A DNA stretch of 64,000 nucleotides. It comes from Methanothermobacter sp. (GTDB lineage: Archaea > Methanobacteriota > Methanobacteria > Methanobacteriales > Methanothermobacteraceae). The position numbers were made by a program, and so were the translations under genes. The stretch covers positions 1 to 64,000 of the forward strand of contig NZ_JASFYG010000004.1 of the NCBI RefSeq assembly GCF_030055435.1, written 5' to 3'. Below are positions 43,433 to 43,735 of this stretch, in pieces (positions within the stretch are counted from its first letter, which is position 1; each line of letters starts with the position of its first letter). A model generated the notes under the pieces. It did not search any database. It was not told the DNA's origin and worked only from the letters and a program-made list of their open reading frames with translations.

Positions 43433-43735
43433 TTTTTCCCTCCTAACAATCAGTTCCGTATACTAAACATCCAAGACCCCCCTTTTCAGGAAAGGCAAGA
43501 AGGCCCTTGGAGGGTGTTAAAACACCCGTTTTAGTATACGGTGCATATTTAACTTGATTATAATTAATTAAGATTTCTTTCTGAATCAAGTCGAAAGATT
43601 TATATGTATCAAAACGTTTTTTCGGGTTTTATGGATTTTTTATACGGCTGCGTTGATTTTATGATCATGCACACCGCAGGTATGATGGCTGCAGGGTAAT
43701 AAATTATATTTAAGGCGCCGCACAGAAAGAGGGAC
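43433..43735. other. Divergent intergenic region between mcrB and mmp10
   Basis: The region holds control signals for both sides. On the minus strand: the TATA-like TTAATTATAATC near 43556-43569, then the structured leader 43541-43456, then the mcrB ribosome site. On the plus strand: ATTTATATG near 43597-43605 and AAATTATATTTAAGG near 43702-43716, the latter about 28 bases before the mmp10 ATG. No further gene is seen. Confidence 0.55.
43456..43541 (-). promoter_or_regulatory. Candidate structured RNA leader of the mcr operon (three-way junction)
   Basis: In transcript order: CCGTATACTAAA (P1 5' arm), two bases, GGGTGTT-TT-AACACCC (P3 hairpin), directly TCCAAG (P2 5' arm), an inner hairpin CCTTT/AAAGG, CTTGGA (P2 3' arm), two bases, TTTAGTATACGG (P1 3' arm). 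All stems listed are perfect Watson-Crick pairs. P1 starts near the predicted transcription start and ends about 24 bases before the mcrB ATG. Folding and function are inferred from sequence alone; the GTATAC-containing arms could also be a pair of DNA operator sites. Confidence 0.5.

Follow-up and report, generated by a model that had tools for sequence, protein, structure and literature searches.

The mRNA of the mcr operon carries a three-way-junction RNA at its predicted 5' end in all Methanobacteriales lineages examined except Methanothermus. We describe it from a 64,000-nucleotide stretch of Methanothermobacter sp. (contig NZ_JASFYG010000004.1, positions 1 to 64,000; hereafter the window), where it occupies the minus strand from 43541 to 43456 and consists of a closing helix of 12 bp (P1), a hairpin of 6 bp (P2) and a longer hairpin (P3). 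Comparison with related leaders shows a sense-strand RNA structure that is under selection, is confined to mcr and lies between the promoter and the ribosome site. That this leader RNA is an element under selection we regard as nearly certain. It is a new family within a known class, the structured 5' leaders.

Results

The mcr leader of the window folds into a three-way junction

The features of the leader and of the gene that follows it are these:

43530 to 43541, minus strand: 5' arm of P1, CCGTATACTAAA, with the GTATAC core at 43539-43534; found in 89 of 89 anchored leaders (GTATAC being the anchor)
43512 to 43527, minus strand: P2 hairpin, GGGUGU-UUUA-ACACCC, 6 bp with a 4-nt loop
43470 to 43511, minus strand: P3 arm, closing stem UCCAAGG/UCUUGGA with an inner CCUUCUU stem and loop
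43456 to 43467, minus strand: 3' arm of P1, TTTAGTATACGG
43438 to 43443, minus strand: Shine-Dalgarno sequence of mcrB, GGAGGG, outside the structure
42101 to 43432, minus strand: mcrB, first gene of the mcr operon, start codon at 43432

A preliminary description of this leader had recognized the 12-bp outer stem, which is present at 43541-43530 and 43467-43456 of the minus strand, and had 86 bases pairing perfectly in nested fashion; the three-way junction stands, the perfection does not, since G-U pairs and unpaired bases occur. Its 7-bp hairpin GGGTGTT/AACACCC is in fact the 6-bp P2 (7 bp would mean a 2-nt loop). Its TCCAAG/CTTGGA stem is there, although 6 bp is too short: the stem is UCCAAGG/UCUUGGA, with a second stem of 7 bp within it. 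Its inner CCTTT/AAAGG pairing is a weaker alternative to the P3 extension of the predicted fold, and CCTTT is missing from one relative (L006).

The 88-nt element has a minimum free energy of -43.2 kcal/mol (z = -6.83), a stability equalled by 0 of 200 shuffles; with its flanks the values are -45.8 and z = -4.90. The opposite strand of the element reaches -33.5, which is 9.7 kcal/mol worse than sense, and we rejected an antisense or divergent RNA on this ground. An attenuator or terminator was likewise rejected, the window having no U-run 3' of the structure. Within the genus, P2 pairing is retained in 97.6% of cells and one P3 pair shows a two-sided change, from A-U to G-C. Covariation in Methanothermobacter alone is weak, with two two-sided changes, and the genus by itself could not decide the matter.

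The architecture is shared by leaders of unrelated sequence

We located mcrB, or the homologous mrtB, in 8 Methanothermobacter genomes, in 125 of 151 genomes of the order and at 80 loci of another collection. De-duplication left 97 leaders, among them some truncated at contig ends and a few belonging to other orders; 89 of the 97 could be anchored on GTATAC. In all 89 of these distinct Methanobacteriales mcrB leaders the P1 arms stand at the same two places: the 5' arm, with GTATAC, at the predicted start of transcription, and the 3' arm, with GTATAC or GTATAT (GTATGC in one genome), upstream of the ribosome site. Almost all of the 89 form a three-way junction. In the leaders inspected, enforcing P1 left the folding energy where free folding had put it, and the result was mostly a three-way junction.

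Around this frame P2 and P3 vary, their sequences being unrelated between genera. One Methanobacterium-type leader has a P2 that folds poorly (L019); the f2 family (L101-L104) has a P1 of 14 bp, a P2 of 4 bp and a P3 of 8 bp; and P3 is enlarged in the Methanovirga group. In Methanobrevibacter curvatus (L032) an insertion in P3 separates the arms to about 240 nt, leaving unchanged both the position of the 5' arm relative to the promoter and that of the 3' arm relative to the start codon. This AT-rich insertion of about 150-170 nt (L032:2711-2970), with both P1 arms retained, amounts to a natural insertion experiment. Leaders of termite-associated and related clades (L022-L028, L034-L037) have an extra small hairpin, TAACTA-TATT-TAGTTA, directly before the Shine-Dalgarno sequence and about 30 nt before mcrB, which gut Methanobrevibacter do not have.

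Base pairing is conserved where sequence is not

Covariation across species, on which the preliminary description had made the element depend, was found. Even with P1 left out, the inner region folds more stably than its dinucleotide shuffles (mean z -2.87, with 42 of 45 representative leaders below -1). A gap-free, structure-blind alignment of eight leaders from the termite-associated clade revealed 93.8% of cells paired, as compared to 21-48% when the partners were slid, and nine of the ten P3 pairs vary in it, almost always remaining paired. In a model-fitted alignment of 36 leaders, which is biased towards the structure, 120 cells show two-sided changes against 40 ± 5 in shuffles; under a phylogeny-keeping null, two P3 pairs of this fitted alignment reach E <= 0.01 and six of the eight top-scoring column pairs are pairs of the structure.

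The character of the tolerated pairs was also informative. In three alignments, of which two were built without the structure, cells with G-U outnumber those with A-C by 31:6, 110:6 and 126:15, a 5- to 18-fold excess. Thus, selection acts on the sense RNA, as DNA dyads would be indifferent to the distinction. Within P1, pair 7 is U-A, C-G or A-U depending on the clade (mismatched in three Methanobacterium-type leaders), and further pairs differ between the f2 family and Methanothermobacter with complementarity kept. Identity across genera is 0.53 in the inner region and 0.51 in the upstream flank, as compared to 0.66 in the promoter and 0.78 in the linker: the fold is retained without its letters, which fits a structural role.

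Several analyses were uninformative. When all Methanobrevibacter-like leaders were aligned by sequence only, the phylogeny-keeping covariation test gave nothing significant, because MAFFT does not align P3 correctly from one clade to another; we replaced this alignment with the model-fitted and the clade-wise gap-free ones. Closely related gut genomes alone (A2) were too conserved to inform on covariation, and RNAalifold predicted only P1 from the fitted alignment, since gap-rich columns such as those of P3 are not predicted.

The element is confined to mcr operons of Methanobacteriales

Two covariance models were built, R2 from Methanobrevibacter-type leaders and R3 from Methanothermobacter, and their matches are confined to mcrB, with roughly one for each mcr operon. 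R2 matches 86 of the 151 genomes of the order at a single locus each, except for three genomes that also hold two mcrB genes. R3 finds exactly one confident locus in each of the 8 Methanothermobacter genomes; it also picks up two Methanobacterium-type leaders, weakly but in the correct place (L020, E 0.02; L019, E 0.37). R2 misses the leaders of Methanothermobacter and of the f2 family, so that the case for homology across these clades is made by position, P1 and architecture; P2 and P3 may be convergent between clades. The models gave no confident match at any mrt operon or Methanococcales mcr leader, in agreement with the earlier remark that the mrt leader has no equivalent. In Methanothermobacter mrt leaders (L009-L016; near 12107 on the minus strand in the window) the start codon is preceded by long AT-rich repeats, AATAAATTTTATTAATAAATAAATAAA, which these leaders share and which are unrelated to the mcr element.

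The 1.24-Mb genome of a sister family (G151), which we take to be Methanothermus fervidus, has the conserved promoter, no GTATAC and a leader of about 35 nt without structure. Most simply, the element would have been gained once, after the split from the Methanothermus-like lineage.

No Rfam 15 family reaches its gathering threshold in the window, consistent with the element being undescribed, as first proposed, and we found no description of it in the openly searchable (non-subscription) literature. The best sub-threshold match, preQ1-II (RF01054), is likewise a leader RNA of similar length; scoring 18.9 bits where the family cut-off is 47 (E 0.78), it is at chance level, and we rejected this identity.

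The predicted transcription start coincides with the closing helix

Upstream of the element lie two further features:

43564 to 43581, minus strand: likely mcr B recognition element (BRE) GAAAGAAATC and TATA box TTAATTAA
43587 to 43604, minus strand: conserved DNA block TATAAATCTTTCGACTTG, which in 88 of 89 leaders lies 64 or 65 nt upstream of GTATAC

GTATAC mostly lies 30-33 nt downstream of where the best TATA-like 8-mer begins. In methanogens the TATA box has 8 bp and transcription starts about 23 bp later (PMC11409679), and with this rule the spacing predicts a start at or adjoining the first base of P1. For the window, the start is predicted about 31 nt after the first T of the TATA box, at approximately 43541, which is the first base of P1, and the structure ends 12 nt upstream of the GGAGGG of mcrB; the element thus begins and ends where the preliminary description had it. 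No mapped mcr start for Methanobacteriales was found in the openly accessible literature. The geometry up to the start is rigid and the length of the leader beyond it is variable, a contrast that argues for a 5' arm placed at the start.

The upstream block reads TATAAA-CTTTNCTANTTG and may be an mcr activator site or a divergent promoter. Its reverse strand reads CGAAAGATTTATATG, a BRE with a TATA box. In the window, the divergent neighbour of mcrB (43736-44983, plus strand) is a radical S-adenosylmethionine gene resembling methanogenesis marker 10, which acts in McrA arginine methylation; a marker-10-like gene stands upstream of mcrB, in either orientation, in most Methanobacteriales and Methanococcales loci. 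The block is retained where the neighbouring mmp10 is not divergent (L024, L040), and look-alikes occur in the Methanothermus-like genome and in Methanococcales (L203; L055, L056), which are without the RNA.

Discussion

A putative 5'-terminal mRNA stabilizer

We give about an even chance to the element being a putative 5' mRNA stabilizer that doubles as an insulator, and the RNA-stability option of the preliminary description is thereby the mechanism that fits best; the exact start site, the nuclease protection and the effect on expression are what we infer. Transcription would begin within a few bases of the predicted first base of P1, so that the 5' end of the mRNA would be tied into, or lie beside, the closing helix of a compact fold whose 3' side ends about 12-25 nt before the Shine-Dalgarno sequence. 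Hidden in this way, the 5' end would give nucleases that depend on it, such as archaeal RNase J (a gene for which is present in the window genome), nowhere to land, and the self-contained fold would leave the Shine-Dalgarno sequence unmasked; the heavily used mcr message could then persist and be translated efficiently. In the window, the Shine-Dalgarno sequence with the element is predicted to be 81% unpaired at 65 °C. Averaged over leaders, its predicted accessibility is 0.58 with the native element and 0.41 with a shuffled one, and the gain is clear in Methanothermobacter (L001, L003) and several gut Methanobrevibacter.

Leaders of this kind are known elsewhere. According to papers cited in PMC3997798, 5'-terminal stem-loops stabilize mRNA in Escherichia coli and Bacillus subtilis. 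The E. coli ompA and papA and the B. subtilis aprE leaders form stable structures at the very start of an abundant mRNA, a position predicted for the mcr element too; as in the mcr element, the ribosome site is left downstream and structure outweighs sequence. The mcr element differs in being archaeal, in forming a three-way junction rather than single hairpins and in its order-wide conservation at one operon. Long 5' untranslated regions stabilize the mtaA and mtaC mRNAs of a cold-adapted methanogen, as reported in work cited in PMC5378194. These too belong to archaeal methanogenesis genes and have a stabilizing role according to that source; they come from a different order, different genes and a different leader, and shared sequence is not expected.

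Five points weigh against this stabilizer reading. Methanothermus fervidus and Methanococcales do without the element; the six GTATAC core pairs of P1 are by themselves weak evidence, because the motif is palindromic and served as the anchor; a limiting action of archaeal RNase J on mcr mRNA is an assumption; the gain in accessibility is missing from some clades (L006, L017, L034, L035); and P2 identity in Methanobrevibacter (0.77, as compared to 0.62 for P3) exceeds the need of a plain structural prop.

This last point leaves room for a protein or a ligand at P2, and we tentatively entertain the possibility of a sensory RNA, with mcr expression tuned by a protein or a small molecule (F430, nickel or a coenzyme, for example) bound at P2 or at the junction. 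The purine and thiamine pyrophosphate (TPP) types are three-way-junction riboswitches, and the mcr element resembles them in its three helices around a junction within a 5' leader; its confinement to a single operon and the strongly conserved primary sequence of P2 (GGCTNGCTATTGCAAAAACTTGCTTTGTAGCT) among gut Methanobrevibacter also favour sensing. Unlike those riboswitches, however, it has no aptamer nucleotides shared across genera, no expression platform that we could see and no Rfam match. No unpaired position is conserved across genera, and inner identity hardly departs from background (0.53 vs 0.51), so the preliminary label of riboswitch-like is not supported in its usual sense. Neither a terminator nor a fold masking the Shine-Dalgarno sequence was seen, alternative folds not having been searched exhaustively; the same limit applies to Methanothermobacter, whose minimum-free-energy structure contains no masking fold and leaves the Shine-Dalgarno sequence 0.81 unpaired.

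It is unlikely that the element acts chiefly as a translational insulator or standby site, its fold preventing pairing between leader and ribosome-binding site or giving the ribosome a landing platform, with any stability an indirect result. In more than a third of 30 leaders the native element leaves the Shine-Dalgarno sequence more open than 95% or more of the shuffled elements do, and the linker that contains it is the most conserved segment (0.86). However, this openness is not seen in all clades, the site is predicted to be as open or more so once the element is removed (0.74 vs 0.58), and a hairpin would suffice where a three-way junction is found.

The preliminary description had also offered a DNA operator pair, in which a regulator binds the two GTATAC palindromes and loops the DNA. 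Both arms are indeed palindromic in the Methanobacterium and Methanothermobacter types, and the 5' copy is in every anchored leader. The spacing of the arms, however, which in the window is 76 bp between starts (not 74 bp, as first given), ranges from 60 to 103 bp and reaches about 240 in M. curvatus, with scattered helical phases. Moreover, all 71 Methanobrevibacter-like leaders have GTATAT in the 3' arm, so that the palindrome is lost and a G-U pair kept. With the inner hairpins conserved and G-U exceeding A-C, we consider an operator pair very improbable. Least credible of all is that GTATAC is merely an initiator-like DNA motif at the start site with incidental hairpins, a reading that its invariance in anchored leaders and fixed distance from the promoter would suit, but that the folding z-scores, the covariation and the G-U bias contradict, as does the retention of the promoter without GTATAC in M. 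fervidus.

Implications for methanogenesis

Methyl-coenzyme M reductase produces nearly all biological methane, and Methanobrevibacter is the dominant methanogen of the rumen and the human gut. To our knowledge, the post-transcriptional setting of this enzyme's abundance in Methanobacteriales is largely unexplored. We think it quite improbable that the leader acts as a regulatory sensor of the state of methanogenesis, through F430, nickel, a coenzyme or an RNA-binding protein recognizing P2, and adjusts methyl-coenzyme M reductase synthesis; if it did, it would exert control over this enzyme in the methanogens that dominate the gut and biogas reactors. The element would be a rare archaeal structured leader with comparative support that is absent from Rfam, and it is a natural part for Methanothermobacter expression tools. 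An operon-specific, conserved RNA at the start of the mcr mRNA provides a concrete and readily tested handle on enzyme abundance.
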